A stretch of 64,000 bases of DNA from Streptosporangiaceae bacterium NEAU-GS5. Lineage in GTDB: Bacteria > Actinomycetota > Actinomycetes > Streptosporangiales > Streptosporangiaceae. A program made the position numbers and the translations under genes. Position 1 is the first letter of the stretch, and every line of letters starts with the position of its first letter. The notes beneath the pieces were generated by a model. That model saw only the letters and a list, made by a program, of their open reading frames with translations, was not told the origin of the DNA and did not search any database. Shown here one piece after another: positions 5,713 through 31,477 of the stretch. Where the stretch lies: contig JAGFNW010000008.1 in assembly GCA_017592665.1 (NCBI GenBank), forward strand, positions 208,063 to 272,062, in the 5' to 3' direction.

Positions 5713-6200
5713 CGGCCGGCCACGATATCGCCGGCTCCGCCGTGTCGCGCTTTGCCGATGTTCCCGGACCCGTGCTGCAGGATGAAGTCGCCGTTGGCGA
5801 CATTGATAGTCGTCTTCGCGGTCTCGTCCTGGGCCTGGGCCTGGGCCTGGGCCGAAAGGATGCTGATGGCATGGTGGGCGGTCTTGGCGATATCCCTGGC
5901 GCTGGCCGCCTCGATCTCCACCACCTGGTCGCCCCGCTGGATGCGGATCTTGACTGTTCTGGACCGGGTCGACAACCAGGTGGTGATCGCTGTGACTACC
6001 GCAACGCCGATGCTCTCAGGTGCGGCCAGCACCTCGAGAAGCTCCACCACGGAGCCCATTTCGCCTGGTCGCGCCGGCCGTTGAACACGTTTGAGGATAA
6101 TGTGCCGCGCGACGTCATCGTCGGACAGCCACCTCGCCAGGTCGAGCAGCTCATCACCGGTTGGATCCTCGATAACCGATAGTTGAAACGCGTCAGCCAT
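5709..6200 (-). CDS. EACC1 (effector-associated constant component 1) protein
   Basis: A 163-aa protein. The N-terminal segment (DELLDLARWLSDDD) and the central GVAVVTAITTWLSTRSRTVK followed by IRIQRGDQVVEIEAAS match the EACC1 family, a constant partner of variable effectors (peptidases, CHAT, TIR) in actinobacterial conflict systems. The helix around 75-90 is hydrophobic and may associate with membrane. A Gln-Ala repeat (about 118-124) links to a C-terminal tail (residues 136-163) with GDFILQHGSGNIGKA, echoed at the N-terminus of the CHAT protein. The start is supported by GGAGGGGG upstream of ATG 6200. It is the first gene of a two-gene operon. Confidence 0.82.
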   Translation of the reverse strand: MADAFQLSVIEDPTGDELLDLARWLSDDDVARHIILKRVQRPARPGEMGSVVELLEVLAAPESIGVAVVTAITTWLSTRSRTVKIRIQRGDQVVEIEAASARDIAKTAHHAISILSAQAQAQAQDETAKTTINVANGDFILQHGSGNIGKARHGGAGDIVAGR

Positions 6201-8566: not shown

Positions 8567-8737
8567 GCCCGCTCCCTTAAAAGCCAGATACTAAGCACCT
8601 TCACGCACAAACCATCCCAAATCGGGCGCGTCCCGATAGCTCTGGAATAACTGGACGCACCCGCCAGAATAGGTGATCCCGCGCTAGCATGGAGCGATAG
8701 TTAGAGGGCCATCGCAATGTGATCAATAGAGGTGTGG
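8567..8737. promoter_or_regulatory. Divergent intergenic region of the conflict island
   Basis: 171 bp separate ATG 8566 (minus) from ATG 8738 (plus), so both promoters must lie here. AGGGAG serves the minus gene and AGAGG (8727-8731) the plus gene. I see no convincing -35/-10 pair or long palindrome, only the weak -10-like TAGCAT near 8683. Confidence 0.4.
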
Positions 8738-9583
8738 ATGACCAAGCCATTCACCGACCGCGAACTGAGCGAACTGGCTCGCGTATTCGCTCCAGGCCCG
8801 GCGGCATTGACCCTTTTCACCCGCGCGGGCATCCCGCGGCAGGACCTGCCCGGCGCGTTGGGCGGCGTAACGTCACGGGAATACTGGACCATGATCAGTG
8901 ACCTGATCGCCGCCGGCACTGTCGAAAATGGAGCACGCCGGGTTCTCACCGCCGCGTCCGAAATCTTTCCCGCCAATCCGATCTTTCAGGGCAGCGGCAC
9001 GCTTCGCCACGTCCTGTTCATCGGAGCGAGTCCCGACCGGATGAGCACGCTCCGGCCTGACCGCGAGCTGCGTGAGATAATCCGACGTGCCGACAATGAC
9101 CGGATCAAGGTGCGCTATCGCCCGGCCGCGGATTCCGGCAATCTGGCCGCAGTCTTGGAGGACCGCACCGACATCCTCCATTTGGCGTGCCATGGCAACT
9201 CGGACTCCGTCTACTTCGAGGCACCGGACGGAACACGACAGGTAGTCAGCGGCCGTCATTTGGCCGACACCCTTCGCCTTTATCAGGACGATGCAGGCGC
9301 CGTCCTAAGAGGGGTGGTCCTCGCCGCATGCCACAGTGCGGCCGTAGCCGAGCTGCTGCGCCCATACGCGGACACCATCATCGCTCATCAAGGAGATCTG
9401 CTCGACGTCTGCGCCATCGAATTCGCCGCCGAACTCTATCGCGTTCTTCCTGTTTCAGCCTCACTTGGCGGCGCCGCCCGCATAGCCGCCCGCCACGCGG
9501 CGAACGCGCGCGCTTTATGTGGCATGGTCCCTGACGAGCTGGTCGTGTTCGAAAAGCAGGAAGGCGCAAATGGCACAAAATGA
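8738..9583 (+). CDS. EAD1-CHAT protease
   Basis: A 281-aa two-domain protein. Residues 5-85 are an effector-associated domain 1 (EAD1), a death-like adaptor fold: FTDRELSELARVF, LFTRAGIPRQDLP, EYWTMISDLI, ILTAASEIFPANPIF-type layout. Residues about 90-281 are a CHAT protease with His152 (LHLACHG) and Cys198 (LAACHS). EAD domains couple effectors to sensors through homotypic contacts, and the E2 fusion at 11420 carries a second EAD1. I chose ATG 8738 over GTG 8732 because AGAGG sits 6 bp upstream of it. First gene of the coupled operon; its stop overlaps the next start. Likely the executioner of the system (inference). Confidence 0.85.
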   Translation: MTKPFTDRELSELARVFAPGPAALTLFTRAGIPRQDLPGALGGVTSREYWTMISDLIAAGTVENGARRVLTAASEIFPANPIFQGSGTLRHVLFIGASPDRMSTLRPDRELREIIRRADNDRIKVRYRPAADSGNLAAVLEDRTDILHLACHGNSDSVYFEAPDGTRQVVSGRHLADTLRLYQDDAGAVLRGVVLAACHSAAVAELLRPYADTIIAHQGDLLDVCAIEFAAELYRVLPVSASLGGAARIAARHAANARALCGMVPDELVVFEKQEGANGTK

Positions 9584-9779
9584 GTACGTCGAAGATCTTC
9601 CTGACCTGATCGACGCCGGCGAGTACGGCGTTCATCCGGAGGGACAGCTGGTGCGGCTATGCATCAGCGTGACCCCGGACGGGGTCGAGGTCCTGGGCGA
9701 CGCGTTTCGCCCAGACGTCCTCGACGCGCTCCTCGGCAATCTGGGTGGCGGACCAGTGGAGCAGATGCTGTGCGGCTAG
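9570..9779 (+). CDS. 69-aa peptide ending in Cys-Gly, ternary-system-associated type
   Basis: A small acidic protein with an N-terminal stretch (YVEDLPDLIDAGEYGVHPEG), a strand (QLVRLCISVTPDGVEVLG), one helix and the C-terminus GGGPVEQMLCG. ATG 9570 overlaps the end of the CHAT gene by 14 bp, so I reject the longer frame upstream. Its size and place resemble short peptides in FtsH-type ternary operons (from memory, not verified). The exposed C-terminal Gly directly after Cys makes it a possible modifier or carrier for the E1/E2 pair, but it is too short for a full beta-grasp fold. Function unknown. Confidence 0.6.
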   Translation: MAQNEYVEDLPDLIDAGEYGVHPEGQLVRLCISVTPDGVEVLGDAFRPDVLDALLGNLGGGPVEQMLCG

Positions 9780-10363
9780 GCGACCATGACGGGCGGGAGT
9801 CCGTCGAATTCGAGCTGGGCCACGCCGCTGCCGTCGACCGCCGGATCGAGGCTGACGTGCCCGCGGGCCCGGCAATCACCAATATCACATCCTGGTGGAA
9901 CCATTTGCCCTGTGGCCGATGCGGCCATACTTTCCGCAGAGGCGATCCGGTGATTCAGGATTTCCTCGCGCGCGAGGTCATCCACACGAACCCGCAGCTC
10001 GGATGCGGCGCGGCGGAATCGGCGGACCGGGGCCAGGACGACGAATTGACGGCTTTCGGGGCGGGCGTTCTGGCGGCCTGGCCCGGTGACGACAACGCGC
10101 CGGTCACCAGGCTTACCGATGATGACTGGCGTAGCAGCTGGTCAGGCCCGCCGCTCATGCGGGCACGCTGCCTGTTCTGCGCGCACACCTTCCGGTCGGG
10201 CGAGCTGGTGATCGTTTGCCCTTGCGGCCCCGGACAGCCGCAGTGCGGCTCGGCCGTGCACCGTGATCCGGCCCTTGGCATGGTCTGCTGGGAGAGCTGG
10301 CGTCCCGACGGGCGGATCGGATCCTGCCCGGTCACATTGGCCAGGCGCGGCGATGACAACTGA
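9770..10363 (+). CDS. RING-like binuclear zinc protein (candidate E3)
   Basis: A 197-aa protein from GTG 9770, which overlaps the previous stop; the longer frame would run far into that gene. Two cysteine blocks are visible: Cys48-x2-Cys51 (LPCGRCGHTF), then Cys134-x2-Cys137, Cys150-x-Cys152, Cys159, His164, Cys173 and Cys186. The spacing of the second block fits a cross-braced RING/treble-clef. The duplicated CxxCxHTFRxG motif suggests a repeated zinc module. Prokaryotic RING proteins are known beside E1/E2/JAB genes and are predicted ubiquitin-like ligases. The next gene here is the E1 (11-bp overlap). Role as E3 is inferred. Confidence 0.72.
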   Translation: MRLGDHDGRESVEFELGHAAAVDRRIEADVPAGPAITNITSWWNHLPCGRCGHTFRRGDPVIQDFLAREVIHTNPQLGCGAAESADRGQDDELTAFGAGVLAAWPGDDNAPVTRLTDDDWRSSWSGPPLMRARCLFCAHTFRSGELVIVCPCGPGQPQCGSAVHRDPALGMVCWESWRPDGRIGSCPVTLARRGDDN

Positions 10364-11441
10364 GGCCACCGACCGATATGCGCGGCAGCGCCTCGTGGCG
10401 GGCTGGAACCAGGAGCGTCTGGCGGCGGCCACGGCAGTGGTAGTTGGGGTCGGCGCGCTGGGGAACGAGGTCGCCAAGAACCTCACGCTGGCCGGTGTCG
10501 GCCACCTCATCCTCTGTGATCCCGACACTGTGAGCGCGTCGAATCTGAGTCGCAGCGTGTTATTCCGCGCCGCCGATCTCGGGCTGGCGAAGACCGAGGC
10601 GGCCAAGACCGAGCTGACGCGCATGTCCAGGGGTGTGAAGGTGGACTGCCGCAGGTCGGAGCTGACATCTGGAGTGGGCCTCGGCGAGCTCGCCGACGCC
10701 GACGTGGTCATGGGCTGCCTTGACAACCGGCGAGCCAGACTGCAACTGCTGGGCCGGTGCGCACTCGCGGGAGCACACCTGGTGGACGGAGGCACGGATC
10801 CCTGGGGTGGCGAGATCCGGCTCCGCTTCTCACGCGCCGACCCCTGCTACGGCTGCTCGCTGACACCTGCCCAGCGCGGGGAGTCCGACGTGCCCTGGCG
10901 ATGCCAGGATGCCTCACAGGAGCTTCCACCGGCCGCCACGATTGCCGGCACGGCCCTGGTCGCGGCCTGGATGACTGGGGCGGCACTCCGCGCCGTTCTG
11001 GGCCAGACTCCGCCCTATCGGTTCATCAGGATCGACGGCAAAGACGGCGAATCGAGTCCTGTGACCGTGACGAGGGATCCCGGCTGCCCGCTTCATCACC
11101 CCATGGGAGAGGTCGAGCGCGTCCCGTTCGGCCATCGCGCGACCGTCGATGCCTTCCTGGCCGTATTGCCAGATGACGCCGACCCGCTCACCTGGACCGA
11201 ATTCCCATTGACAGCCGACTGCCGCGGATGTGGCCGTCGCCATCCACGAGACGAGATCCACGCGAGAGCCATGACATGTCACGAGTGCGGCGGCATCGTG
11301 CGCCCCCGGTTCAGCCAGCGGTTACGGGACGCCATGGGAGAACCCGACCTGCGTCTGTCCCACCTCGGGGTCGCACCACAAGAGATCATCGCCGTCCGGC
11401 TGCCGGGAGGTGAGTTTCGATGGCTTCGCCTGAGCCGTTGA
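10353..11441 (+). CDS. E1-like ThiF/MoeB-family adenylyltransferase
   Basis: A 362-aa E1-like activating enzyme. The nucleotide-binding loop is Gly32-x-Gly-x-x-Gly37-Asn-Glu. Acidic Asp56 and Asp58 sit in LILCDPDTV, and NLSR (64-67) plus Lys80 match the ATP-contact positions of ThiF/MoeB. Cys184 (PWRCQDASQE, before PPAATIAG) lies where E1 enzymes carry the thioester cysteine. Cys165/Cys168 (DPCYGC) and a C-terminal CxxC...CxxC ribbon (290, 293, 309, 312) probably bind zinc. ATG 10353 gives a normal ThiF N-terminus. It would adenylate the C-terminal Gly of a ubiquitin-like protein and pass it to the E2 encoded by the next gene, which overlaps by 22 bp. Confidence 0.9.
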   Translation: MTTEATDRYARQRLVAGWNQERLAAATAVVVGVGALGNEVAKNLTLAGVGHLILCDPDTVSASNLSRSVLFRAADLGLAKTEAAKTELTRMSRGVKVDCRRSELTSGVGLGELADADVVMGCLDNRRARLQLLGRCALAGAHLVDGGTDPWGGEIRLRFSRADPCYGCSLTPAQRGESDVPWRCQDASQELPPAATIAGTALVAAWMTGAALRAVLGQTPPYRFIRIDGKDGESSPVTVTRDPGCPLHHPMGEVERVPFGHRATVDAFLAVLPDDADPLTWTEFPLTADCRGCGRRHPRDEIHARAMTCHECGGIVRPRFSQRLRDAMGEPDLRLSHLGVAPQEIIAVRLPGGEFRWLRLSR

Positions 11442-13054
11442 GACAACCACGCCGTCCTCCCACCGCGACGCTTCGGCCGGCCAGGGAGATCCCCCTGGAG
11501 TCAGACGAGCTCGACGAGTTCCGATGGGCCGTGGCACGAGTGTTCAACGATCAGACGAGTGCCGAGAACCTGCTGGCCAGGATCGGATACCCCAGAGAGC
11601 ATCTGCCCACGTGGGCCGGCCAGAACGCGGACACGTGGTGGACCGAGGTGTTCCTGGCACTGCATCACGGGATCATCGACCTTCCGCACCGCCGCCTGCT
11701 CGGTGCCGCGGTCCGCGTCTACCAGCACAACCCGGTCTTCCGCCCGCTGGCCCAACGACATGGGTTGATCAACCTGGACGAGGGCACCGCCGGAGAGCAG
11801 GACATGACAGACCCGGTCGCCCCAGAGCCGCAAGCACCGAGCATGCCTGAGGTGCACCCGGACGAGCCTGAGGACGCCTCAGCGGACAGCACCGCGGAAG
11901 CTGTCGGAGCGCCAGAGGAGGCAGGGCTCGCAGACGCCGAGGAGGCCGGGCCGCCGACCTGCCATGTGATCATCCGAGCGAGCTCGGAGGACGCGAGGGT
12001 TGAGGCCGCCGACATTCTGCGGGCTCTCGAGCTCGACCCAAGAGATGTCTGGTCCACCGCTCACGCCATCTCCTACCGCCTGAACACCGACGACATCTCT
12101 CATGTCCGTCGGCAGCTGGACTCGACAGATCTCGGCTGGACCGTCGTCCCCGCGGGCGCACGCGACTACCTACTGCGCGAGGTCTACGTACAAGGACCTG
12201 ACGGCCGCCGTTTCCGCTTCCTTGACGCCCCTGCCCAGCAGACGGTCGGCAACATCGCCGCCGAGGTCGTCGACCAGTACGGCAAGACCTTCGCCGACAA
12301 AGCGCGCCCAACAGTGGTGGATCACGTCGAGGATGACGGACGGCGCCGCAGGCTCGCCCCCGAGGCGACACTTCACGACGAAGGGGTCCGGGAAGGAGCT
12401 CATCTCCGCGTCGGGTTCGAGGCCACCGCGGGCGCGATCAATCCGCTGGACCGCCAGGACGCGCTGAGCAGAGTGCGCAACGAGCTGCTCTCCTTCGCCA
12501 GGAGCCGCCCCGATCTGGTGGTCCGAGGTTTCCCACCGATGCTCCCGACCGAATATGAGCTGGAATTCACCCAGCCCAGCCTCGGTCCGCCACGGACGCA
12601 GGACGGCGACCCCACCCGGGTGGAACGGCATGTCGTGAGCATCAGCCTGCGCGGCGACTTTCCCCAGACGCCGCCGGTGGTCTTCTGGGACAGCCTCATC
12701 TTTCATCCGAATGTCTACCCCAACTACGGCGACATGTCCCTGGATCATCCCGAGCACAGCGGCCTCGTCTGCCTCGGCATGCTGGCGGAGTCCTACCGGC
12801 CGTCCCTCGACTTCGGGGACCTGTTCCAGTTGCTGATCGACATGGCGGCCTTCCGCAACTACGGCCTGTTGGAGCCGACAGGCGTCGTCGGCGCGGACGG
12901 CCGCGAGGAGACCCGCGTCAACTTCTACGACAGGGCCGCCGCGATCTGGGTGGCAGAACATCCGGAGGAGATCCTCCAGATGGGTGGATCGCCGGGAGGT
13001 CGGCCCATGCGAGTGGAGCCGGAGTATCGCAACGTCATCGAGGCTGTCACGTGA
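11420..13054 (+). CDS. EAD1-Ubl-E2 fusion (ubiquitin-conjugating enzyme)
   Basis: A 544-aa modular protein. Residues 28-110 are an EAD1 domain (AENLLARIGYPREHLP, then VYQHNPVFRPL). A Glu/Pro-rich linker (115-180) follows. Residues 181-245 form a small alpha/beta unit of unknown family. Residues 252-340 are a YukD-like ubiquitin fold (VYVQGPDGRRFRFLDAP, TVGNIAAEVV, LHDEGVREGAHLRVGF). Residues 350-500 are an E2: FPPMLPTEYELEF, His429-Pro430-Asn431 and catalytic Cys451 in GLVCLGM. The HPN triad and cysteine are intact, so transferase activity is likely. The Ubl is internal and cannot be conjugated without cleavage, so it may be regulatory. ATG 11420 follows GGGAGGTGAG. It is coupled to JAB by a GTGA overlap. 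Confidence 0.87.
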   Translation: MASPEPLRQPRRPPTATLRPAREIPLESDELDEFRWAVARVFNDQTSAENLLARIGYPREHLPTWAGQNADTWWTEVFLALHHGIIDLPHRRLLGAAVRVYQHNPVFRPLAQRHGLINLDEGTAGEQDMTDPVAPEPQAPSMPEVHPDEPEDASADSTAEAVGAPEEAGLADAEEAGPPTCHVIIRASSEDARVEAADILRALELDPRDVWSTAHAISYRLNTDDISHVRRQLDSTDLGWTVVPAGARDYLLREVYVQGPDGRRFRFLDAPAQQTVGNIAAEVVDQYGKTFADKARPTVVDHVEDDGRRRRLAPEATLHDEGVREGAHLRVGFEATAGAINPLDRQDALSRVRNELLSFARSRPDLVVRGFPPMLPTEYELEFTQPSLGPPRTQDGDPTRVERHVVSISLRGDFPQTPPVVFWDSLIFHPNVYPNYGDMSLDHPEHSGLVCLGMLAESYRPSLDFGDLFQLLIDMAAFRNYGLLEPTGVVGADGREETRVNFYDRAAAIWVAEHPEEILQMGGSPGGRPMRVEPEYRNVIEAVT

Positions 13055-14082
13055 GCGAGATCACGGTCGACGTCTATCGCATAGACGACTTCACCAAGCA
13101 GGACAGCGTCCCCCTGACGGGCCTGCTGCGCTCGGCTCTTGAGCCTCTGCTCGGCGAGTCTCTCGCCGGCGCGCGGTTCAACCTCGTCTTCCTGCCCGTG
13201 CCCGACCTGGGAGTGCTGGACGGACATCCACCGTTGATCAATCTACGAAGCAGCCACGGTTATCTCAATGTACGTGTCGTACTCGGCGGCCTGCTCGTAT
13301 ACCAGCATCCGCACTCAGTCCGCGAGGTTGTCGCGCGACCGCTGCAACGCCTGCTGGCGGCACGGGGAGCGGACGGCCGCACACCCGGCTCCCGACATCA
13401 GGGCTCAGGAGACGGCGGATGGGGGTTCGGAATCTCCGGACCCGGCCTTGATCACATCTCCCTCGTCCGCCCCAAGCCCGTGCTCCCCGGCAGCGTTGAG
13501 ATCTCGGTCGGCACACGCCGACGCGCGTTGTTCCACGTGGAGGAGCTGCCCGAGCCGGAGCCCCGGGTGACGACGATGGCCGAGCTGGGCGTCCCGGCCT
13601 GGCCGGATGCGATCGACCCGCCGCTCGCGGTCGTCCTGACCGCCATCGTCTACGACCAGCTGCTCTCGTCGATGTCGTTCTCCGACGACCTGGAGGAGGG
13701 CGGCTTCTTTATCGGTGAGGTCTATCGGGCCGAGCAGGGCGGCATGGTCATCCTGATCACCGAGGCCGTCAAGGCCGAGCAGTCGGGCGCGTCGATGCTG
13801 CACTTCACCTTCACAGGGGAAAGTTTTCTCCGGCTCAACGACCTGATCGCTCACCGTTCCATGGGGGAACGGCTCCTCGGCTGGTATCACACGCATCTGT
13901 TCCCGGCCAGTGACGAACTCGGCTTGTCCTCCATCGACGTGGAACTGCACAAGGGCACGTTCCGCCAACCGTGGCAGGTGGCCGGACTCGTCAATATCGA
14001 CCGGAGATCTCGCCTGCTGCGCTTCTACGCGGAGCACGCGGGGCAGGTCGTCCCCGTTCCCTTCCAGGTGAGCACGCGATGA
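13051..14082 (+). CDS. JAB/JAMM-domain isopeptidase (deubiquitinase-like)
   Basis: A 343-aa protein. The first 175 residues are an alpha/beta region that I do not recognise, with a Gly/Ser-rich linker near 115-130. The C-terminal JAB domain carries the complete JAMM zinc site: Glu215 before GGFFIG, His280 and His282 in WYHTHL, Ser293 and Asp296 in LSSID. Such enzymes remove or mature ubiquitin-like tags; beside E1 and E2 this is the expected processing or recycling enzyme. It starts at a GTG overlapping the E2 stop, and its own stop overlaps the next ATG. Confidence 0.87.
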   Translation: MSEITVDVYRIDDFTKQDSVPLTGLLRSALEPLLGESLAGARFNLVFLPVPDLGVLDGHPPLINLRSSHGYLNVRVVLGGLLVYQHPHSVREVVARPLQRLLAARGADGRTPGSRHQGSGDGGWGFGISGPGLDHISLVRPKPVLPGSVEISVGTRRRALFHVEELPEPEPRVTTMAELGVPAWPDAIDPPLAVVLTAIVYDQLLSSMSFSDDLEEGGFFIGEVYRAEQGGMVILITEAVKAEQSGASMLHFTFTGESFLRLNDLIAHRSMGERLLGWYHTHLFPASDELGLSSIDVELHKGTFRQPWQVAGLVNIDRRSRLLRFYAEHAGQVVPVPFQVSTR

Positions 14083-15014
14083 CCACGGGACAGGCCCTTC
14101 CGGCCATCGAAGCGTTCGGCCGAGGATCGGCCGAGGAAACGGCGCGGGCGATCCTCGACTGGGCTCGGCAGCCGACCGGCCATGCTCCCCGCGCGACGCT
14201 GCGTGAGCTGGAAACACTCATCGCTCCAGGAGGTCGGACTGTCGCCTCACTGCAGAGACTCGCCTGTGAGGTGGCCGCCCGCCTGGGGGCGGGAGATCCG
14301 CCTCTCGGTGATCGAGCACCCATTGGGCTCGGCGCGCTGTTCCTGGCCGCCGCGATCGGCGGCCGGCACCGCCCCTCAGACGCGGAGCGCCTTGCCGCCG
14401 CAGCCCCCGCGCCGTCCCTTTCCCACTGGCGCGATCTGCTGGCTCGGCATGCGGTTCTCGCTCCCTTCCTCGCCATGCCGGCCGCCGACCACGCCATCTC
14501 GCCCGCTCCGCTGGAGGAGGCCCTGATCGTCGCCTCGCCGCTGACCACCGTGCTGTGCCGCCCCGCCGCGCGGCAACTGGTGGAGGGGACCGTCGGCGCT
14601 GGAATCGACACGGCGCGGCGCCTCGTGTCACGGCCGCATGGCCGGGCCATGCTGTCGCGGCGAATGGCTGTGCCAGAACGGGATCCCGTCACTCTCAACT
14701 GGCGCGCGCATGTGCTGTCCCAGCTCACGCTCGATCGTGTGGACGTGGTTCTGGACACCTATGTCACCGCGCGGGTCACATACGGCGAGGAATGGGACCG
14801 TCACGTGAGATGGGCGACCCGCGAGCTGTGCCGTCCTGAGCTTCCCGACGAGGCGCCGCTCGCCATCGTGCGGTTTTTCGTGCCGCTCGCGCTGCTGGCG
14901 CGACGTCAGGCGGACCTCGTACGGGTGCGCCCCTACCTCACCGGATTCGGCCGCGCGATCCGCTTGGCGGAGCAATACCGGCTGACCACTCGGATAGGAG
15001 CGGAGGGCCGATGA
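14079..15014 (+). CDS. All-helical hypothetical protein of the conjugation operon
   Basis: A 311-aa protein, Ala/Leu/Arg-rich and apparently all alpha-helical, without signal peptide or membrane helix. I recognise no catalytic motif. It begins ATGA at the end of the JAB gene and ends ATGA at the start of the AAA ATPase, so it is stoichiometrically co-translated with both. A scaffold or adaptor between isopeptidase and unfoldase is possible, but that rests on context alone. Confidence 0.6.
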   Translation: MTTGQALPAIEAFGRGSAEETARAILDWARQPTGHAPRATLRELETLIAPGGRTVASLQRLACEVAARLGAGDPPLGDRAPIGLGALFLAAAIGGRHRPSDAERLAAAAPAPSLSHWRDLLARHAVLAPFLAMPAADHAISPAPLEEALIVASPLTTVLCRPAARQLVEGTVGAGIDTARRLVSRPHGRAMLSRRMAVPERDPVTLNWRAHVLSQLTLDRVDVVLDTYVTARVTYGEEWDRHVRWATRELCRPELPDEAPLAIVRFFVPLALLARRQADLVRVRPYLTGFGRAIRLAEQYRLTTRIGAEGR

Positions 15015-16951
15015 TCGAGTTGCGTTTCGTTCCCCTGGATCCTCAGTCGTTCAACGACCGATTCCTGCTGGCCGGCATCGAGGAACCCGATCTCACGCTG
15101 GGCGCGTTCCTCCGGCAGGAGTCCGCGCTCAGCCTGGATCCCATCGATCCCGATCTCCTGGAGATCCCGCTCAGCCGCCTGATCATCCATGTCTGCGCGG
15201 CCGACCCCGCTGTGCCGCTCTATCTGCCACCGTTCGTCGACCTGACCAGGGCGGCGTCACGATCTGCCGAGGAGCGGGCCGCACCGGCGACGCCGGCCCC
15301 CAAACCGGTGGTCATCACGCCCGCCGGCACCGGGCACCCGGAGGAGCTCAGTGAGCGCAGCGCCGTGCTCATCGCCCACGACTCGGACATCACGCGCGCC
15401 GCGGCCTACCTCGACAGTGGTCTTTCGATCCTCATCCGCAGCGAGAAGCTGCTGGTCGAGCACCTGGCACAGGAGATCGCCGGAAGGGCCGGACGCGCAC
15501 CCCGGTTCGTCACGGCCGCCACGAACAGCGCCGCCGACCCCATGGGATTGGGCGGCGGGCGACGGGCGGCGCTGCTGACGGCACTCCAGCAGGCGGTCCA
15601 TGACGCCAAGCCTGGAGAGGTGGTCGTGGTGCCGCATCTCGACCTGCTGGCGGGCGGCAGTGACGCGGCGCTCACCGCCGAGGCCCGCGAACTGACCGAC
15701 GTGCTCTACGAGCGCAGCGACTGCATCCTGCTCGCCTTCACCGACCCGTCGCTGATGGTGCCCGAGGTCCTCGCCAACAGATTCGCGGTGCGGCTGGCCA
15801 TCGACATCCTGCCCCGGCAGGTGCGTACGGCCGAAGGCACGGTCATGCCGATCGGGACGGCGCTGGTCACCCAGGCCGAGGCCGCACTGTTTCACGGCTT
15901 CGACGCATCCGGCCTCTACAAGTACATCGCGGGCATGAACGCCGTACGACTGCGTCATGCCCTCAGGTTCGCCTATCACCAGAACCGTGCGACCGCGCCG
16001 GACACCACCTTCGCCGACCTGCTGCAGGAGCTGCGCAGCTTCAAGGCCAGGACGTCGAGCTCGTTCGAGGTGCCGACGGTCACGTTCGGTGAGATAGGCG
16101 GATACGACGAGGTCAAGGTAGAACTGCGGCGGGCCATAAAGATCATCGGAGGTGCGGGAGACCTACCCGACAGGCTCCGTCCCGACCTCGTGCCGCGCGG
16201 ATTCATATTCCACGGGCCACCCGGCACCGGCAAGACGCTCTTCGCCAAAGCCGCCGCCAACGCGCTCAAGGCGACGATCCTGGTGGTCTCGGGCCCCGAG
16301 GTCACCGACATGTACGTGGGCGAGAGTGAGCGCAAGGTTCGCGAGCTGTTCGCCGAAGCCCGCAGGAACGCTCCCAGCGTCGTGGTCTTCGACGAGTTCG
16401 ACTCGATCGCGGCCCGCAGAACCGGGCGCGACGACGGCGGCAGCCGCGCGGGCAACGCGATCGTGGCCCAGTTGCTGACCGAACTGGACGGTTTTCGGCC
16501 GGAGGTGCCAGTGCTGATCATCGGCACCACGAACCGCATCGACCTGATCGACTCCGCGCTGCTGAGACCCAGCCGGTTCCGCCCCGTGAAGATCGACCTG
16601 CCGGACAAGGTCGCCCGCAGAAAGATAGCGGCCGTGCACGCCGCGCACTTCGGCGTGCCGATCTCAGAATCGCTGCTCGACCGCGTCGCCCAGGCCACCG
16701 ACAAGATGAATGGCGATGAGATCCGGTCCATCTTCCGCGACGCCCGCGCGGACGAGCTCGTCGGAGAGCCGCCGCGTCCGGCCGGCCCCCGCCGCCTCGG
16801 CGAACTCGTCGGTGCCCTCCGCCTGGCGCAGCAGGAACGCGACGCGGGGCCGGACGCCAATCTCCGCCGCCGAGGACATGGCGGACGGGGACGCAGAGAC
16901 CTGCCGGTGTTGTCCGGCCCGAGCAATCCCGAGGAGGACAGGCGGACGTGA
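15011..16951 (+). CDS. FtsH/Cdc48-type AAA ATPase without peptidase
   Basis: A 646-aa protein. Residues 1-105 are a unique N-terminal region. About 110-320 look like a degenerate AAA-type alpha/beta domain (GEVVVVPHLDLLAGG resembles Walker B) with no P-loop. The second AAA domain is complete: Walker A GPPGTGKT (402-409, Lys408), pore loop MYVGESERKVRELF, Walker B VVVFDEFDS (Asp461-Glu462), sensor-1 IIGTTNR and arginine finger LLRPSRFRP. The FtsH zinc protease (HExxH) is absent, so this is an unfoldase or segregase. The C-terminal tail (after about 600) is basic and disordered. With the MoxR and vWA-like genes it completes the three parts of an FtsH-MoxR-vWA ternary system (family knowledge). 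Confidence 0.88.
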   Translation: MIELRFVPLDPQSFNDRFLLAGIEEPDLTLGAFLRQESALSLDPIDPDLLEIPLSRLIIHVCAADPAVPLYLPPFVDLTRAASRSAEERAAPATPAPKPVVITPAGTGHPEELSERSAVLIAHDSDITRAAAYLDSGLSILIRSEKLLVEHLAQEIAGRAGRAPRFVTAATNSAADPMGLGGGRRAALLTALQQAVHDAKPGEVVVVPHLDLLAGGSDAALTAEARELTDVLYERSDCILLAFTDPSLMVPEVLANRFAVRLAIDILPRQVRTAEGTVMPIGTALVTQAEAALFHGFDASGLYKYIAGMNAVRLRHALRFAYHQNRATAPDTTFADLLQELRSFKARTSSSFEVPTVTFGEIGGYDEVKVELRRAIKIIGGAGDLPDRLRPDLVPRGFIFHGPPGTGKTLFAKAAANALKATILVVSGPEVTDMYVGESERKVRELFAEARRNAPSVVVFDEFDSIAARRTGRDDGGSRAGNAIVAQLLTELDGFRPEVPVLIIGTTNRIDLIDSALLRPSRFRPVKIDLPDKVARRKIAAVHAAHFGVPISESLLDRVAQATDKMNGDEIRSIFRDARADELVGEPPRPAGPRRLGELVGALRLAQQERDAGPDANLRRRGHGGRGRRDLPVLSGPSNPEEDRRT

Positions 16952-18147
16952 GTGAGAGCGTGCTGGACAGAGAGACGCTGCTCAAGGGCAGGACGTACGC
17001 GACCAGGCTGGCGGATGTGAAGAACGGCTTCGTGGGAAGGGAGGAGGCGGTCGACCTGATCGCGCTGGCCCTGCTCTGCCGTGAGCACGCTCTGCTGATC
17101 GGACCTCCGGGAACCGCGAAGACCAGCTTGATGGAGCGCTTCCGTGTGCTACTCGACGCGCGGTACTTCGCCTACCTGCTGACCAGGTTCACCGAGCCCG
17201 CCGAGTTGTTCGGCCCCATCGACTTCCAGCGATTCAAGAAGGACAGCGTTTACCGGCTGAACACGGCCGGCATGCTGCCCGAGGCCCAGATCGCCTTTCT
17301 TGACGAGATCTTCCAGGGCAGCAGCGCGATCTTGAATTCGCTGCTCACCATCATCAACGAACGCCGGATCTACAACGGCTCCGAGCGCGTCAACGTCGAA
17401 CTGGTCACCTTGCTCGGGTCGTCCAACGAGATCCCCGATGATCCGCTGCTCGCCGCGTTCTCCGACCGCTTCCTGCTGCGCTGCCGGCTCGACTATGTGG
17501 CCGACGACGCGCTGGACAACGTGCTGGACCTCGGCTGGCGAGGCGAACAGGAGATCATCTTGCGAGCCGTCGGCGACTCGGCCGCGAACGGCGGCGCCAA
17601 ACCCGGATTCAGCCTGGAGGACCTGCAGCTTCTCCAGCGTGCCGTCGCCGACATCGACCTGTCGGCGATCCGGGGTCCGTTCGCCACGATCCTTCGGTCG
17701 TTCCGTGCCGAGGGCGTCGCCTTCTCCGACCGCAGAGCGGTCAAGGCCATGAAGACGTTCGCCGCACATGCGTTGCTCGGCGGACGGAAGAAGGCGGAAT
17801 TGCTGGACCTGGCCCCGCTTGTGCATCTGTGGTCCTCCCCCCGCGACGAGCCCTCGATCCGCCGGATCGTCGCCGACCACGACATCCCCGTGGACGTCGG
17901 CACGCGAGTGGTGAGGGATCCGGCCGAGGTCAAGTTCGAGCTGCGCCAGCTCATCCGGCAGCGCGAGCATGTGTCGTCCCACGACGAATGCCGCGAGCTG
18001 CTGCGGCGCCTGCATCGGCTGACCGTCGAGCTGCGACGGGACCACCCGGAAAGCCGCGAGCTGGCGGCGGACGTCGCCGCTGCGCAGCGAGACGTCCTCG
18101 ACATGTATCGGGAGAAGTACGCAGAGGAGGGACTCTACGGTGTGTAA
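16948..18147 (+). CDS. MoxR-family AAA+ ATPase
   Basis: A 399-aa MoxR/RavA-type ATPase. Walker A GPPGTAKT (52-59); GPIDFQRFKK and Walker B IAFLDEIFQ (Asp119-Glu120); the helix-2 insert region SSAILNSLLTIINER; sensor-1 LLGSSNEIPD; LLAAFSDRFLLR with the arginine finger. The helical lid domain extends to about 300 and a helical tail to the end. MoxR ATPases act as chaperones for vWA-domain partners; the only vWA-like protein here is encoded at 20083. GTG 16948 overlaps the AAA stop as GTGA; GAGGAGGACAGG just upstream supplies the ribosome binding site. Confidence 0.9.
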   Translation: MSESVLDRETLLKGRTYATRLADVKNGFVGREEAVDLIALALLCREHALLIGPPGTAKTSLMERFRVLLDARYFAYLLTRFTEPAELFGPIDFQRFKKDSVYRLNTAGMLPEAQIAFLDEIFQGSSAILNSLLTIINERRIYNGSERVNVELVTLLGSSNEIPDDPLLAAFSDRFLLRCRLDYVADDALDNVLDLGWRGEQEIILRAVGDSAANGGAKPGFSLEDLQLLQRAVADIDLSAIRGPFATILRSFRAEGVAFSDRRAVKAMKTFAAHALLGGRKKAELLDLAPLVHLWSSPRDEPSIRRIVADHDIPVDVGTRVVRDPAEVKFELRQLIRQREHVSSHDECRELLRRLHRLTVELRRDHPESRELAADVAAAQRDVLDMYREKYAEEGLYGV

Positions 18148-18913
18148 CCCCCGCCGCGTCCGCGTACGCACGACTCGGGAACTCGCTCAATCCTGGGAGC
18201 GTGAGGTGCGCCGACGAGTCACGCTCCGCGGCACGGCTCACGGCGAGGCTCGCATCCGAGAACCACTCGGCACGTCCCTCGGCGCCCCCACCCTGGCCGC
18301 GTTACCTGCGGCACTTGCCCATGCTGAGGGATGGCGGCGCGAAGAACACCGATACGTCCACTCGCTAGAAGGCGGTTATGTCGCCTATCTCCCAGAAAGC
18401 CGGGAGATAGAGATCGTCGCCACCGGCCAGCGGGGCGTGGAAGCGGCCGGCGACGCGGGCATGCTGCTCCGCGGCGAGCTCACTGAGACCTTCGAGGCCG
18501 AGGGCGAAGGGGTGTATTACACCGACGGCGAAGGCGGCCACACGCCGGCGTCGGCCCGGCGGGTCGCCGAAACCCGCGCCCAGCATGCGCTTGATCACCA
18601 GGTCAGAGATGCCCTGCACGCCGCGCAGGAGGCAGCCGAGCTGCGCGAGGCCGCCGCCCTGGAATCCGACGCCGGCTCCCGGGCGCGAAACGAACTTGAC
18701 CGGCGGACCGCGGAGGTCTCCGAGGAACTGCGGCGGGACGCGGCGCTTCGGCTGGAGGCCGTCGGAGTCCAGGCGCGCAACGCGTTCCATCGGGTCCTGG
18801 CGGTGGCGTATCGCGACGCGATCCTCGCCTACGCCAGGTCACGCGGGGCGCTCGGCGTCGTGTGCGCGGAGCGGGACGGAGTGGTGGACATCCAGTTTGA
18901 GCTCGAGGTGTGA
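18140..18913 (+). CDS. Coiled-coil protein of the ternary operon
   Basis: A 257-aa protein. The first 70 residues are Arg-rich and may be disordered. About 70-145 form a small beta-rich unit (YVAYLPESREIEIVATG, YYTDGEGG). About 150-225 are a long Glu/Ala/Arg coiled coil, and the end (VVCAERDGVVDIQFELEV) is a strand pair. GTG 18140 overlaps the MoxR stop by 8 bp. No enzyme motif. I suspect a structural partner of the ATPases; family not named with certainty. Confidence 0.6.
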   Translation: MCNPRRVRVRTTRELAQSWEREVRRRVTLRGTAHGEARIREPLGTSLGAPTLAALPAALAHAEGWRREEHRYVHSLEGGYVAYLPESREIEIVATGQRGVEAAGDAGMLLRGELTETFEAEGEGVYYTDGEGGHTPASARRVAETRAQHALDHQVRDALHAAQEAAELREAAALESDAGSRARNELDRRTAEVSEELRRDAALRLEAVGVQARNAFHRVLAVAYRDAILAYARSRGALGVVCAERDGVVDIQFELEV

Positions 18914-18914
18914 G

Positions 18915-19175
18915 ATGCGGATCAGAGTCAGCTTCCGTTACGACAGCTCCACCGGCGATGTCCAGGTGTTCCAGGTCAGCCAGGCTGACGACGCACCACG
19001 CACACCGGATCACGATCGCCGCCACGAGGCCGCCACCAGCGACGTCGCCCGGGTCGTAGCGCAGAATCCGACGATCGACGAGGTCCCCGACGAGGAGCCC
19101 GCACCACGGATCCACGAACGCGCGGACATCGAATCCCAGCAACGTGCTGAGCGGCGACGGCATGGCCAGTCCTGA
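18915..19175 (+). CDS. Small hypothetical protein, 86 aa
   Basis: The ATG at 18915 lies one base after the preceding stop. The N-terminus (MRIRVSFRYDSSTGDVQVFQ) predicts a beta hairpin, and the rest is acidic or basic and probably disordered. The next gene starts inside it. Conserved placement suggests a real operon member; no function can be assigned. Confidence 0.5.
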   Translation: MRIRVSFRYDSSTGDVQVFQVSQADDAPRTPDHDRRHEAATSDVARVVAQNPTIDEVPDEEPAPRIHERADIESQQRAERRRHGQS

Positions 19176-20073
19176 GCTGGGTCCACTTGAGCGCGCCGGC
19201 TCCTGCTACCTGCGCGCCGGCGACCTGGCGTCCGCGGCCCGCTGCTACCTGGACGCCGGGGCCTATTTACGCGCCGCCAACCTGTACGAGCAGGTGGGAG
19301 ACTATCGCGGTGCCGTGGAGGCGCTGACGGCCGGCGAGATTTCGATGGACGCGGCGTGGATCCTCGCCGACCGTCTCGGGGACACAACGGAGGCACGCCG
19401 CCGTGTCCCCGATCCCGGGCGCTCTCCCTGGGCCGGCACCCCGCTTGGCAGCGCCGAGGAGGCGTGGCGAATCCTGGCTCCAGAATTCGACTCCAGAGCT
19501 CATCTAGGCGCTCTCCCGCGTCCGACCAGGACCGACATAGAGAACGCGCTGGTCACGCTTGCCCTGACGCCCGATGATCCAGAAATCACGCAGCGAGTCG
19601 ACATGAGTCGTCGGAAGGCTCGTGATCTCAAGGAGGGCGGCATCGACGTGCAGGACTTCGAGACTGCGGCCGCCTTCCGGGACGTCGAGAGGCGCATGCA
19701 GTCGATGCAGCAAATCCTGTCTGACATGGGCTCGGAGTCCCGCGCCCAGCAGCAGCAATCGCTGCTTGAGCGGCTGGTCCTCGCCCGCTGCGATGTGGCG
19801 GAGCGGGCACCCGAGCGGCAGATCCTGCCAGTGCTGGCCGACGCCCGGGCAGCGCTGCGGTGGCCGGAGTCGGCCACAGATCAGCGGACCGAGGACTGGG
19901 CGGTGACAGTCGCCACCGCGATGCCCCGCTTCGACCATGTGGCGCTCATCTTCGCCACGTCGGTCCAAGCGCGTCGGACAGGCGCGGTCAGACGCTGGCA
20001 GAGCTGGTCTGAGCGAATGTTCGGGACCCGGCTGGTCCTGCCGACCGAGCCCGAGCCGGAGCCGGAGCAATAG
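19162..20073 (+). CDS. TPR-like solenoid protein with UVR motif
   Basis: About 303 aa. Residues 1-70 are helix-turn-helix repeats (AGSCYLRAGDLASAARCYL, ANLYEQVGDYRGAVEAL) of TPR type. In the middle, ARDLKEGGIDVQDFETAAAF followed by RDVERRM is a good UVR (UvrB/UvrC, also ClpC middle-domain) motif. The C-terminal third is helical with an acidic Glu/Pro tail. UVR motifs mediate ClpC/McsA/UvrC contacts, so its pairing with the Clp_N array in the next gene is suggestive. ATG 19162 or GTG 19144 could be the start; the ATG is preferred because it gives less overlap with the upstream gene. Confidence 0.68.
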   Translation: MASPELGPLERAGSCYLRAGDLASAARCYLDAGAYLRAANLYEQVGDYRGAVEALTAGEISMDAAWILADRLGDTTEARRRVPDPGRSPWAGTPLGSAEEAWRILAPEFDSRAHLGALPRPTRTDIENALVTLALTPDDPEITQRVDMSRRKARDLKEGGIDVQDFETAAAFRDVERRMQSMQQILSDMGSESRAQQQQSLLERLVLARCDVAERAPERQILPVLADARAALRWPESATDQRTEDWAVTVATAMPRFDHVALIFATSVQARRTGAVRRWQSWSERMFGTRLVLPTEPEPEPEQ

Positions 20074-20082
20074 GAGGTTCCT

Positions 20083-23000
20083 GTGTTCGAGAAGTACACC
20101 GACCGTGCGCGGCGGGTTATCGTCCTGGCTCAGGAAGAAGCCCGGATGCTCAACCACAACTACATCGGGACCGAGCACATTTTGCTTGGTTTGATCCATG
20201 AGAGTGAAGGCGTGGCGGCCAAGGCGTTGGAGAGCCTGGGGATCAGTCTTGAGAGGGTGCGTCAGCAGGTCGAGGAGATCATCGGGCAGGGGATTTCGGC
20301 GCCGTCGGGGCATATTCCGTTCACGCCGCGGGCCAAGAAGGTGGTGGAGCTGTCGCTGCGCGAGGCGTTGCAGCTGGGGCATAACTACATCGGGACCGAG
20401 CATATTCTGCTGGCTCTGATTCGTGAGGGTGAAGGCGTCGCGGCGCAGGTGCTGCTGACGCTGGGGACGGATCTGAATCGGGTGCGCCAGCAGGTGATCC
20501 AGTTGCTGCACTCCTACCAAGGCAAGGGGCCGGCAGTAAACGTGCCGGCCACAGCCCTCTCCCCAGTGCCCTATACCGAGGAGGCGGCGGACGTGCTGGC
20601 CGCAGCCGACGCCGAGGCGCGAATGTTCGGCCACGATGTGACGGGCTGTGAGCATCTTCTGCTGTCGATCGCGAAGACCGAGTATGGCGCCGCAGCGGAG
20701 GCCCTGCGGTCCTTGGGCGCCTTTTGGCAAGCCGTCTACCGCATGGTGGAAGCGGCCCCGATAAGCAGGGGGAAACATACGGGTCAGCGGACATCGACTT
20801 TAAGATTCGTGTTGGACAACTTGGGCCCGGCAGAAGCCGCGTCCTGGCAGGCGGATCGGCTCTCCGTCGACCATCTCCTACTCTGCCTGCTCCAATTGCC
20901 GTCTTTCAGTGGAACAACTCTCAGCAGACTTGATGTCAACCCGGCCGAGCTCCGCACCCGAGTCGAGACGACGCTACGCGGGCAGGAGCCACAGGAATCT
21001 GAGCCGGTGCCCGGCTACTCGCGATTCGACGATCCCGCACGGCAATCCCTGAAAAGGGCGGCCGCCGAGGCCCACCAGGTAACGGGCTACACCACGATAG
21101 GCACCCCTCACATGCTTCTTGGCCTGATCGGCCAGAGCGACGGTCACGCGTCCAAAATCCTCGGCTCCTTCGGCATCTCGCTGGAATCTGCCCGGGACTT
21201 CATCGACGGCCGCATCGACGGGAATCCGCACATAGAAAGGTCTGAGCCCGCGCTCAGCCCAGAGGCGGTGGAGGTCCTTGGGGCTGCCGTGCGCGAGGCC
21301 GACGCGTTCGGTCATGCGCAGATCGGCACCGAGCACATCCTCCTCGGTCTCTTGCCCGCACTGGATACCGCCGCCATTCTTTCCGCCCTCGGCGCAGATC
21401 TCGACGAAATTCGCGAGCGGGTCCAGACTGTACTTCGACCCATGCAAGAGCTTCGCGCACCAAGGGATGAATCCGGCCTCTTCGCCAGATTCACCGATTC
21501 AGCCCGACGAGCCGTCCATAACTCCGGAATGCGGTCAGAAGCATTGGGTCACGGTCCCGTCCTTGGCGAGAACCTTATCCTGACTTTCCTTCGCGAGTAT
21601 CCCGCGTCTCAACCCTATATGATTGCGCAGGATCCCCTGATCTCGCATTGCTATGCGACTGTGATGCTCATCCTGCTGGGCCTGGACCAGCAGACACTGG
21701 GAGCCGCTCTCATGGACGCGATGAGATCAGGCGAAAGCCCGGCACGTGATCACATCCCACTCGAGATACAGACGGAGGGAGTCTGTAAGGCTTCCGTCCG
21801 AGAGTCGCTTCAACTCGGCCATAACTTCATCTCCACCGGTCATCTGCTGTGCGCCATCGTCAGAGATGAGCAGAACAGCGCAGGACAGATTCTGCGCGAT
21901 CGGGGCGTGACGGTCGACGAGTGCCGCGCGATACTGCTCAGAATGCTCGGCCACTCCCCTCAGAGAGCCCAGGCTCCATCCTCACGACCGCGTCTGAGTC
22001 CGATAGAGGAATGGGCCGCAGTTCAGACGGCCACACTGGGCGGAACGATTTCCGGCGCCGACACGAGCGGCTGCGCCACCGGTCTGGCCGCTCTGTCCGA
22101 CGGCGGACTCATCGTTCCTTTCGGGCTGCTGGTGGATCTCATCGGGATGCTGGGCGGATCCGAACCTCATGACCGGACCCTGCGTCCCCTGGTCAGATCC
22201 GAGGGGGTCAGGTTATTGCGCGACCTGAAATGGCCGCTCACCGCACGGGTCGGCCTGGCGGCACTCCTGCTCGGCGAACTGCCGCCGGATCCGGCCCTCC
22301 GGCCACCCGCCTCGTCAGCGTCTGATCTGCGCGCAGCCCTAATGAACACCCTGCGCAAGGGAGGAAACCGCCCGACGCGTCCTCAGCCGTCGCCGGTTCC
22401 CGCCATCGTCGCAGCGGCCGAGCGAGTCAACGCGCAGACCGTCACCATGCTGACCATCCTCGGGCCCGAGACCGTCGCCGCAGATCCCGTGCTTCCGCTC
22501 CGGGTCCGCGACCGCATCGCGACGTTCCCCCTGCTCACGTCCCGCCAGAACACAGTCCTTTCCACCGTCGCCACGGGCATGCACTCGGACGCCCTCGCAC
22601 GCACCGGCTCCACCGCAGGTGGACCCGGATTCAACGGGGTCAGCAGGAAAGGGAAGATTACTAACTTGCTTCCCACGCAGCTGGCGCTTCCCGAGGACAT
22701 CCTCACTCACCGCTATGCCGGACAGGAGCTCATCTACAGGCTGCACGAGACGGATGTGGTGGCCCCGCCGACGCCAGTCACCGTAGTCCTCGACACGACA
22801 CCACCCACCTTCGGCCGGATCGAGACCATCCTCAGGATCGTCGCCCACGCGATCACGACCACCATGTGGGCCGAGCACGTTTCGCCGACGCTTATCACCC
22901 TCGACCGACCGCATCACCCTCGCTTGCTGGACAATCCCACGGACCTGCTCGCTATCTGGTCGGCGCGCACTTTGGCCGCCCCTGAGCTGTCCGCCGCACT

Positions 23001-23244
23001 GGCATCGGCCGACGGCACCGGCAACGAGACGACGATCGTGCTCACCCACCATCACCTGGCCCGTGATCACCCGATCCTGCCCGGCCCCCGGCTCCGGCTG
23101 CTGACCGCGCACGCGCCAGGAGACGAGCCGGCTGACCGTCCACGACACCGTCACCACATCCACCTCCCTGTGGACCCGGCGCCGGGCCAGGTGGCGCACG
23201 CGGTCCAACGGCTCCTGGCCCCCGCGGAACCCGGGTTGGTGTAG
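20083..23244 (+). CDS. Eight-fold Clp_N array fused to vWA-like domain
   Basis: A 1053-aa protein with an excellent AGGAGG ribosome binding site upstream of GTG 20083. Clp_N repeats lie at about 1-70, 80-150, 163-232, 237-300, 312-382, 390-452, 467-530 and 557-625. Repeats 1 and 2 are almost ClpC-like ([18 protein letters not shown]); 4 and 7 are divergent. No AAA module follows. After a helical region (640-760) the last 160 residues contain [17 protein letters not shown] (899-915) and [10 protein letters not shown], the layout of a vWA domain. The MIDAS reads Asp904-Thr-Thr-Pro-Pro-Thr instead of DxSxS, so metal binding may be altered. It is the probable vWA partner of the MoxR ATPase and a multivalent substrate receptor (inference). 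Confidence 0.83.
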
Positions 23245-23247
23245 GGG

Positions 23248-24267
23248 ATGCGGTGGACGCCCGCCGTGCTGTACAGCCCGGACGGCCCGGCACAGAGCAG
23301 GATCCGCTGCGACGCGTGCCCCATGAGGTGCCTCCTCGACGACGGCGAGGTGGGCCGGTGCCACGTGCGCCGCCGGACTGGACGAGTGATGGAGACGGCG
23401 ACCTTCGCCACCTCGGTCCGGAATATCGACGCCATCGAGCGCAAGCCGTTCTACCACTACAAGCCGGGAAGCCGGGCGATCACCCTTGCCGCCCCTGGAT
23501 GCACGTTCCGCTGCGACTACTGCGTGAACCATACGATCTCTCAGTACGGCCGGGAGCCCGGCCGGATCTGGTCGGCGTCACCGGTGGATCCCGCCGAAGT
23601 GGTCGCCGCCGCCGCGGAGGCAGGGGCCTGCGTCGCGCTCTCCTACACCGAGCCGTCCTTGGCGCCGGAGCTGACTCTCGCCCTGGCCGAGCACGGGTCG
23701 GCCGCCGGTGTCGACGTGGTCTGGAAGAGCAACGGCTTCCTCACTCCTGAAGCCGTCACCCTGGTCGCCCCCGCTCTCGCGGCCGTCAATCTCGACATCA
23801 AAGCGGCGGACGAGCATTCCCACCATCGCCTCACGGGTGCGCCGTTACGGCCCGTCCTTGACACCTTCCATGCGTTCGCCGCGCTCGGCGTCTGGATGGA
23901 GGTGTCCACTCCCCTGATTCCCGGAGTGAGCGACCACCCCAGCCAGCTGAAGACGATCGCCCGACTCATCGCCGCCGTAGATCGCGAGATTCCCTGGCAT
24001 CTGCTCCGCTTCACACCGACATTCCGGCTGGCTTCGGCTTCGCCGACCAGCCCGCATGCGCTCGCCCGGGCAGTCGACATCGGCCGGGAGGCGGGGCTGC
24101 GGTACGTCTACGTAGAACGCGCGCTGGGCGAGGCCGGCCGGTCGACGCGCTGCCCAGGGTGCGGTCAGCTGGTGGTTCGGCGTGGGATATGGGAGACCAC
24201 GGCGGTGTCGATCACCGCTGGGGGCTGCGGGCACTGTGGTGTGCCGCTGGCGGGCCGCTGGCGCTAG
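23248..24267 (+). CDS. AmrS-like radical SAM enzyme (AmmeMemoRadiSam type)
   Basis: A 339-aa radical SAM protein of the PflA-activase-like AmrS family. The [4Fe-4S]/SAM motif is Cys85-x3-Cys89-x2-Cys92 (GCTFRCDYC). The N-terminus has the family cysteines RCDACPMRC...GRC, and the C-terminus has a CxxC...CxxC zinc-ribbon-like end (RCPGCGQL, GCGHCGVPL). The usual partners AmmA and Memo are not in the window. It starts 3 bp after the vWA gene, in the same orientation, so it belongs to the operon. It may install a radical-based modification on an operon protein; the substrate is unknown. Confidence 0.82.
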   Translation: MRWTPAVLYSPDGPAQSRIRCDACPMRCLLDDGEVGRCHVRRRTGRVMETATFATSVRNIDAIERKPFYHYKPGSRAITLAAPGCTFRCDYCVNHTISQYGREPGRIWSASPVDPAEVVAAAAEAGACVALSYTEPSLAPELTLALAEHGSAAGVDVVWKSNGFLTPEAVTLVAPALAAVNLDIKAADEHSHHRLTGAPLRPVLDTFHAFAALGVWMEVSTPLIPGVSDHPSQLKTIARLIAAVDREIPWHLLRFTPTFRLASASPTSPHALARAVDIGREAGLRYVYVERALGEAGRSTRCPGCGQLVVRRGIWETTAVSITAGGCGHCGVPLAGRWR

Positions 24268-31474: not shown

Positions 31475-31477
31475 TCG

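Follow-up and report, generated by a model that had tools for sequence, protein, structure and literature searches.

A Clp_N-bearing form of the predicted FtsH ternary system in Streptosporangiaceae bacterium NEAU-GS5, with a candidate ClpC1 bait joined to ubiquitin-like tagging and protease genes

A complex variant of the FtsH ternary system has been predicted in silico (Kaur et al. 2020; PMC7159879). The parts named in that account include a JAB peptidase, an E1, a RING protein, an E2 fused to EAD1 and a ubiquitin-like domain (EAD1-Ubl-E2), and an EAD1-coupled caspase-like effector. It also describes a divergent vWA protein with a beta-propeller, or rarely with Clp_N, and a radical SAM enzyme related to AmmeMemo. 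Release of the Ubl by the JAB was proposed there as well, and a zincin and a variable peptide were said to accompany many FtsH ternary systems. In the present study a stretch of 64,000 nucleotides from Streptosporangiaceae bacterium NEAU-GS5 (contig JAGFNW010000008.1, positions 208,063 to 272,062; hereafter the window) was analysed, and an operon at 8732-24267 almost certainly belongs to this predicted class. It is likely to be the Clp_N-bearing form of the known predicted system, with a putative ClpC1 bait wired to a tag-and-protease effector. ClpC1-type N-terminal domains occur on both the vWA and the X7 subunits, where relatives have beta-propellers or nothing, and this is new here.

The operon is real. 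Thirteen genes, one fewer than the fourteen counted in a preliminary description of this DNA, stand head to tail on the + strand in the order EAD1-CHAT, RING-like, E1, EAD1-Ubl-E2, JAB, fvmX1, FtsH-type AAA, MoxR, fvmX2, fvmX3, TPR-UVR, Clp_N-vWA and radical SAM. Nine of the 12 junctions overlap by 2-22 bases and the remaining three are gapped by 75, 9 and 3 bases. The identities proposed for the E1, E2, JAB, FtsH-type AAA, MoxR, radical SAM, EAD1-CHAT and TPR/UVR genes on this strand were borne out by profile searches. The parts list was incomplete, as a Ubl inside the E2 protein, behind EAD1, had been missed. The span 8738..24267 is also not the whole system, which extends onto the - strand, where a divergent set of Clp_N-fvmX7, EACC1 and a second CHAT gene begins at 8566. 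The features are as follows.

8732..9583, + strand: EAD1-CHAT protease, predicted executioner, likely start 8738 (Pfam EAD1 39.3 bits, CHAT 32.6 bits; C198)
9659..10363, + strand: RING-like zinc protein and probable E3, with an uncertain true start (Prok-RING_1 14.6 bits, below the cut-off of 29.1)
10353..11441, + strand: E1-like activating enzyme, C184 (ThiF PF00899, 141.8 bits)
11420..13054, + strand: EAD1-Ubl-E2 protein (EAD1 11495-11761, Ubl about 12167-12433, E2 12443-12988; C451)
12425..12436, + strand: predicted JAB processing site, T336-A337-G338 / A339 (AG border comparison, stand-alone relatives, model confidence, locus L013)
13051..14082, + strand: JAB/JAMM isopeptidase with fvmJAB_N (fvmJAB_N 120.2 bits; JAB 15.6 bits, under the cut-off of 22.5)
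14079..15014, + strand: fvmX1 protein (PF19998, 202.7 bits)
15011..16951, + strand: FtsH/CDC48-type AAA ATPase (PF00004, 140.9 bits at 399-524)
16948..18147, + strand: MoxR AAA ATPase (bpMoxR 236.8 bits; P-loop GPPGTAKT in the sequence)
18140..18913, + strand: fvmX2 protein (PF20000, 265.3 bits)
18912..19175, + strand: fvmX3 protein (PF19999, 66.9 bits)
19144..20073, + strand: TPR-UVR protein, start probably at 19159 (matches to TPR and UVR weak and below cut-off throughout; relatives at the same place)
20083..23244, + strand: subunit with seven Clp_N stretches and a vWA domain (Clp_N 252.3 bits; vWA by fold)
20083-20520, + strand: first ClpC1-type N-terminal domain of the Clp_N-vWA subunit (87% identity to the ClpC1 N-terminal domain of 7aa4)
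23248..24267, + strand: AmmeMemo-type radical SAM enzyme (TIGR04337, 220.9 bits, cut-off 220)
6401..8566, - strand: divergent Clp_N-fvmX7 subunit (fvmX7 129 bits, Clp_N 107.4 bits)
about 8117-8566, - strand: ClpC1-like N-terminal domain of the X7 subunit (68% identity to the ClpC1 N-terminal domain)
5709..6200, - strand: EACC1 membrane protein (PF19953, 73.5 bits)
5011..5712, - strand: second CHAT protease (PF12770, 42 bits, the sole Pfam match at E 0.1; no EAD1 match)

Several features place the operon in the FtsH ternary class. The MoxR protein has a GXXXTAK-type P-loop and a vWA partner, and the FtsH-type protein is predicted to be active from its PF00004 match and invariant P-loop. The class is also described with a second, inactive AAA copy N-terminal in this protein; the Pfam AAA matches here all start at residue 397 or later. 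The Ubl pathway is complete, with EAD1 both on the Ubl and on the effector, CHAT proteases being counted as caspase-like. The system-specific proteins fvmX1, X2, X3 and X7 are present, and these and fvmJAB_N each score above their own Pfam cut-off. Compared with the account of Kaur et al. (2020; PMC7159879), the operon shares MoxR, vWA, FtsH, JAB, E1, RING, EAD1-Ubl-E2, the EAD1-caspase-like effector, radical SAM and the unique helical proteins, as well as the rare Clp_N-vWA form. It differs in that Clp_N is also found on X7, the first Clp_N domain is kin to the host clpC1, the Ubl processing site is placed, the effector is a CHAT protease, and an EACC1-CHAT pair (5011-6200) adjoins Clp_N-fvmX7.

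A new gene combination was rejected, as Pfam already names the parts fvmX1, fvmX2, fvmX3 and fvmJAB_N and the prediction of Kaur et al. is earlier. Because the system had been predicted there, the statement in the preliminary description that the combination was undescribed holds only for experiments; none on the class was found in a literature search, judged from titles and abstract openings. The earlier picture of a tag-and-unfold system wired to a caspase-like executioner was right, but computational work had already set it out under the name of the complex FtsH ternary system.

The logic of E1, E2 and JAB is shared with Bil and with type II cyclic oligonucleotide-based anti-phage signalling systems (CBASS), whereas here a single Ubl lies within the EAD1-Ubl-E2 protein, the E1 is separate, and AAA, MoxR and vWA proteins are added. 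Matches to Bil and CBASS type II in PADLOC, to which 10 of the 13 genes were submitted, were partial and confined to the E1, and BilD (30.4 bits) was the only Bil model for the E1 among the best 25 of 32 PADLOC matches. CBASS type II has a fused E1-E2 together with a CD-NTase; it was rejected since E1 and E2 are separate genes here and no CD-NTase occurs in the Pfam matches of the 13 genes. Bil systems are described with a separate BilA carrying two Ubl domains (PMC11354881), and membership of Bil was rejected because there is one Ubl, inside the E2 protein, and no separate two-Ubl BilA.

Gene linkage and the E1/E2 catalytic residues, both proposed earlier as checks, are conserved. Among 35 related loci obtained from one scan of genome contigs, the core set (E1, E2, JAB, X1, FtsH, MoxR, X2, X3 and UVR) is found together in 20, which are actinobacterial except for L033 from a Nostoc. 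Among the 15 that lack the full set are three loci of Frankia (L021-L023), incomplete within the stretch taken, and planctomycete, archaeal and further loci bearing E1, E2 or JAB parts, two of which (L051 and L055) also have an FtsH-like match. The rows compared for E1, JAB, RING and the FtsH-type AAA include loci without the whole system. Conservation reaches at least 90% for C184 of the E1 (35 rows) and for C451 of the E2 (25 rows), and the HPN motif of the E2 does not vary in its 25 rows. The JAB metal-site residues E215, H280, H282, S293 and D296 are invariant (23 rows), as is the P-loop GTGKT of the FtsH-type AAA (23 rows). The RING-like protein, whose Pfam match falls below cut-off, has 11 invariant Cys/His positions (22 rows), which is in favour of the earlier assignment. 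All 19 aligned CHAT rows have C198, and all 18 that extend over the His have that residue too; H152 of EAD1-CHAT is presumably the partner of C198. The system is patchy. The E2 protein was matched in 12 of 150 family genomes, with seven matches reaching into E2 and the others covering EAD1 or Ubl only, and fvmX7 was found in one of 396 genomes of a phylum sample, namely its own.

The vWA-like protein and Clp_N receptors of the preliminary description are both present, but as one gene (20083-23244), and vWA was assigned by fold only. Fold matches of the vWA model include the NorD vWA, a MoxR partner, and the MIDAS-UBL (MIDAS, metal ion-dependent adhesion site) of MDN1. In the related loci, nine genes of eight loci encode vWA relatives with an N-terminus that is WD40-like by eye, or without that part. 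In a large protein set, 17 vWA relatives (window included) were among the matches listed, of which 14 have propeller families, one has neither propeller nor Clp_N, and two have Clp_N, i.e., the window's own and P0004, a second vWA subunit on a JGI contig. Clp_N occurs on one of 13 X7 relatives among the matches listed, that of the window, and on none of 11 aligned X7 relatives. When open reading frames of at least 50 amino acids were searched at 1e-5 with the ClpC1 N-terminal domain, two in the window matched and none in the 35 related loci did.

The first of these domains is close to the host's own clpC1 at silent sites. The first 126 bases of the host gene are available, at a contig end after lsr2, and the window domain differs from them at two silent sites in 37 shared codons. 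From clpC1 of 29 other genera, i.e., those with clpC1 loci recovered from 40 other family genomes (24 of the 29 with an lsr2-like motif upstream), it differs at 5-18 of 37 (median 12). The X7 domain of the same genome has 20 silent differences in 36, and therefore codon bias was rejected as the only cause of the match. The protein of the first domain has changed fast relative to its silent sites. This domain is probably a copy out of the clpC1 line of the host itself that later evolved more quickly than ClpC1 does. The X7 domain and the remaining Clp_N stretches are probably older or of different origin. The first domain keeps F2, which we take to be relevant to ClpC1-directed antibiotics, together with F80 and K85, and has I in place of V13. 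V13, F80 and K85 have been named for such antibiotics (PMC12913811). A ClpC1-like domain outside ClpC1 is also known from mycobacterial ClpC2, a partial ClpC1 homologue reported to bind the ClpC1-directed antibiotic cyclomarin as a sponge (PMC10030653); ClpC2 is described there as a separate autoregulating protein, whereas here the domain is fused to subunits of an effector operon.

Two other observations concern clpC1. Contigs C88 (L061) and C63 (L062) end in the same 126 bases of the clpC1 start, identical from ATG and different upstream, and the genome therefore likely holds a second clpC1-like gene. Many family genomes also encode short ClpC1 N-terminal-domain proteins (L102-L121), some of which, judged by eye, end in a UVR-like tail; these could be free ClpC2-like sponges.

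The Ubl, a weak match to YukD, sits between EAD1 and E2. Its border with E2 is AG in 22 of 25 fused relatives. Of 1039 stand-alone Ubl relatives, the 120 listed were checked: AG is the very end of 106, a short tail follows AG in 12, and two are apparent read artefacts. Further stand-alone Ubls beside E1, E2 or JAB genes (L048, L051 and L055) have AG followed by a tail of 4-10 residues, and E..AG is invariant in seven rows aligned across fused and stand-alone Ubls. In the structure model the predicted local distance difference test (pLDDT) drops to <50 at residues 336-338, which link the final strand of the Ubl to the opening helix of E2. In L013 homology to the EAD1-Ubl-E2 protein ends at the Ubl/E2 border, keeping EAD1-Ubl, and no better-than-chance E2 match was seen in the 1.4 kb downstream of it. 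The conserved AG that closes the Ubl coincides with the end of its stand-alone relatives, and therefore a JAB site at G338/A339 and an EAD1-Ubl tag able to recruit EAD1-CHAT are predicted. Release at G338 is slightly more likely than not. Since the Ubl profile found only weak ubiquitin-like matches in the PDB (best E 0.047), and the rows obtained from VIA with the E2 model mainly cover residues 340-523, the Ubl fold is based on the weak YukD matches and the stand-alone relatives. Kaur et al. (2020; PMC7159879) had already suggested the JAB release itself, as had Iyer et al. (2006; PMC1779556) for certain other ubiquitin-like domains in fusions; the placement of the cut site and a role of EAD1 on the freed tag are new here. 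A similar Ubl (E 1.7e-5) lies within a long protein of L017, where no E2 was seen.

EAD1 is also present at other loci. In another genome, an EAD1-CHAT gene lies beside one for a protein with four Clp_N stretches and EAD1 (L071, 6523-9490, - strand), and the pair is a minimal two-gene Clp_N-to-CHAT circuit linked by EAD1. The third EAD1 of the own genome is on a trypsin-like protease (L005, 700-1776, - strand), a likely trans effector.

The order of the genes, the conserved residues, the common AG end, the exchange of domains and the silent-site kinship of the first domain with the host clpC1 are observed; based on the sequences, the following course of events is proposed. The JAB would cut EAD1-Ubl off the E2 after ...TAG, and the E1 (C184) would activate the new C-terminus, with the E2 (C451) and the RING protein transferring EAD1-Ubl to a target. 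EAD1 of the tag would then meet EAD1 of CHAT and of the trypsin-like protease encoded elsewhere in the genome, and the activated proteolysis would kill or arrest the cell. MoxR-vWA and the FtsH-type AAA may keep the complex in an off state until a trigger arrives and then remodel it. Up to this point the scheme is tentative, and we put its being broadly right at a little below an even chance. As the trigger, the ClpC1-type domains of the vWA and X7 subunits might be engaged by a ClpC1-targeting agent, e.g., a phage protein or peptide antibiotic. That the Clp_N domains act as bait is a possibility on the doubtful side. Equally tentative is the integrated decoy that would result, in which the substrate-receptor domain of the host ClpC1 is copied onto sensor subunits, so that an agent seizing ClpC1 would also seize the sensor and set off EAD1-Ubl tagging and the caspase-like protease.

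Several points weigh against this reading. Conjugation, cleavage and defence are predictions. For the vWA model no Foldseek match at E 0.001 or better was obtained, its mean pLDDT is 74.8, and the second MIDAS serine is missing in 11 of 11 rows. The zincin and peptide of Kaur et al. were not seen near the operon, although no search was aimed at them. The Clp_N-EAD1 fusion is rare: EAD1 was matched 27 times, in 14 of 250 family genomes, and one of these matches is such a fusion. The silent-site comparison is limited to 126 bases, where the contig bearing the host clpC1 breaks off. Resemblance to ClpC1 is much lower in the remaining Clp_N stretches of the vWA protein, and the X7 domain has only the 68% identity given above. 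The first domain is also not a strict ClpC1 mimic, since its 146 residues depart from the family consensus at 13 places, not counting the start codon, and 10 of these are columns invariant in 29 ClpC1s. As to the tag, the 120 stand-alone Ubls checked are all closest relatives of one planctomycete query (76-97% identity among those listed) and thus do not count as independent cases. Their identity to the Ubl of the window is low, about 30%, and they match YukD, for whose best-known members no conjugation is known.

The Clp_N domains could bind tagged or damaged clients and not attackers. They would then be ordinary receptors that feed ClpC1 clients or marked proteins to the FtsH-type AAA, in a regulated quality-control or development machine without bait, which is possible but not probable. 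The ClpC N-terminal domain is reported to recognise adaptors as well as clients marked by phospho-arginine (PMC9240326), many of the family genomes searched encode paralogues that have the ClpC1 domain alone, and a weak UVR motif lies within the operon; however, Clp_N on two different subunits is seen only in this genome among the relatives compared, and the EAD1-CHAT pairing of L071 points toward an effector output. It is also conceivable, though unlikely, that the Ubl is never released and the EAD1-Ubl-E2 protein is a single scaffold whose Ubl docks on vWA or E1, with the JAB acting on other conjugates. The AA in place of AG in three of the 25 fused relatives and the solved MIDAS-UBL complex 8ql1 among the vWA fold matches would fit this, whereas the coincidence of the AG border with the free C-terminus of the stand-alone relatives and with the homology break in L013 argues for release. 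A still less probable explanation is that the Clp_N fusions arose by chance and have no sensing role, being kept because the vWA and X7 cores still function. The fast protein change of the first domain is consistent with it, but the vWA subunit P0004 carries three such domains (78, 77 and 52% identity to ClpC1).

Two further genes of the window are likely conflict-system components. An nSTAND1-WD40 protein is encoded just upstream at 1436-4984 (+ strand), and at 29309-31774 (- strand) lies the gene of an LGFP protein in which part of the sequence is trypsin-like (Trypsin_2 25.7 bits, against a cut-off of 27.6); together with its Trypco2 partner it is likely another conflict pair.

The prediction of this class dates from 2020; the predicted cut site, the logic of EAD1 on the tag and the natural pair of Clp_N-EAD1 and EAD1-CHAT render it directly testable. 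Plant immune receptors are known to use integrated decoys. Should the ClpC1 domain prove to be bait, the same strategy would exist in bacteria, directed at attackers of a protease that drugs target as well.

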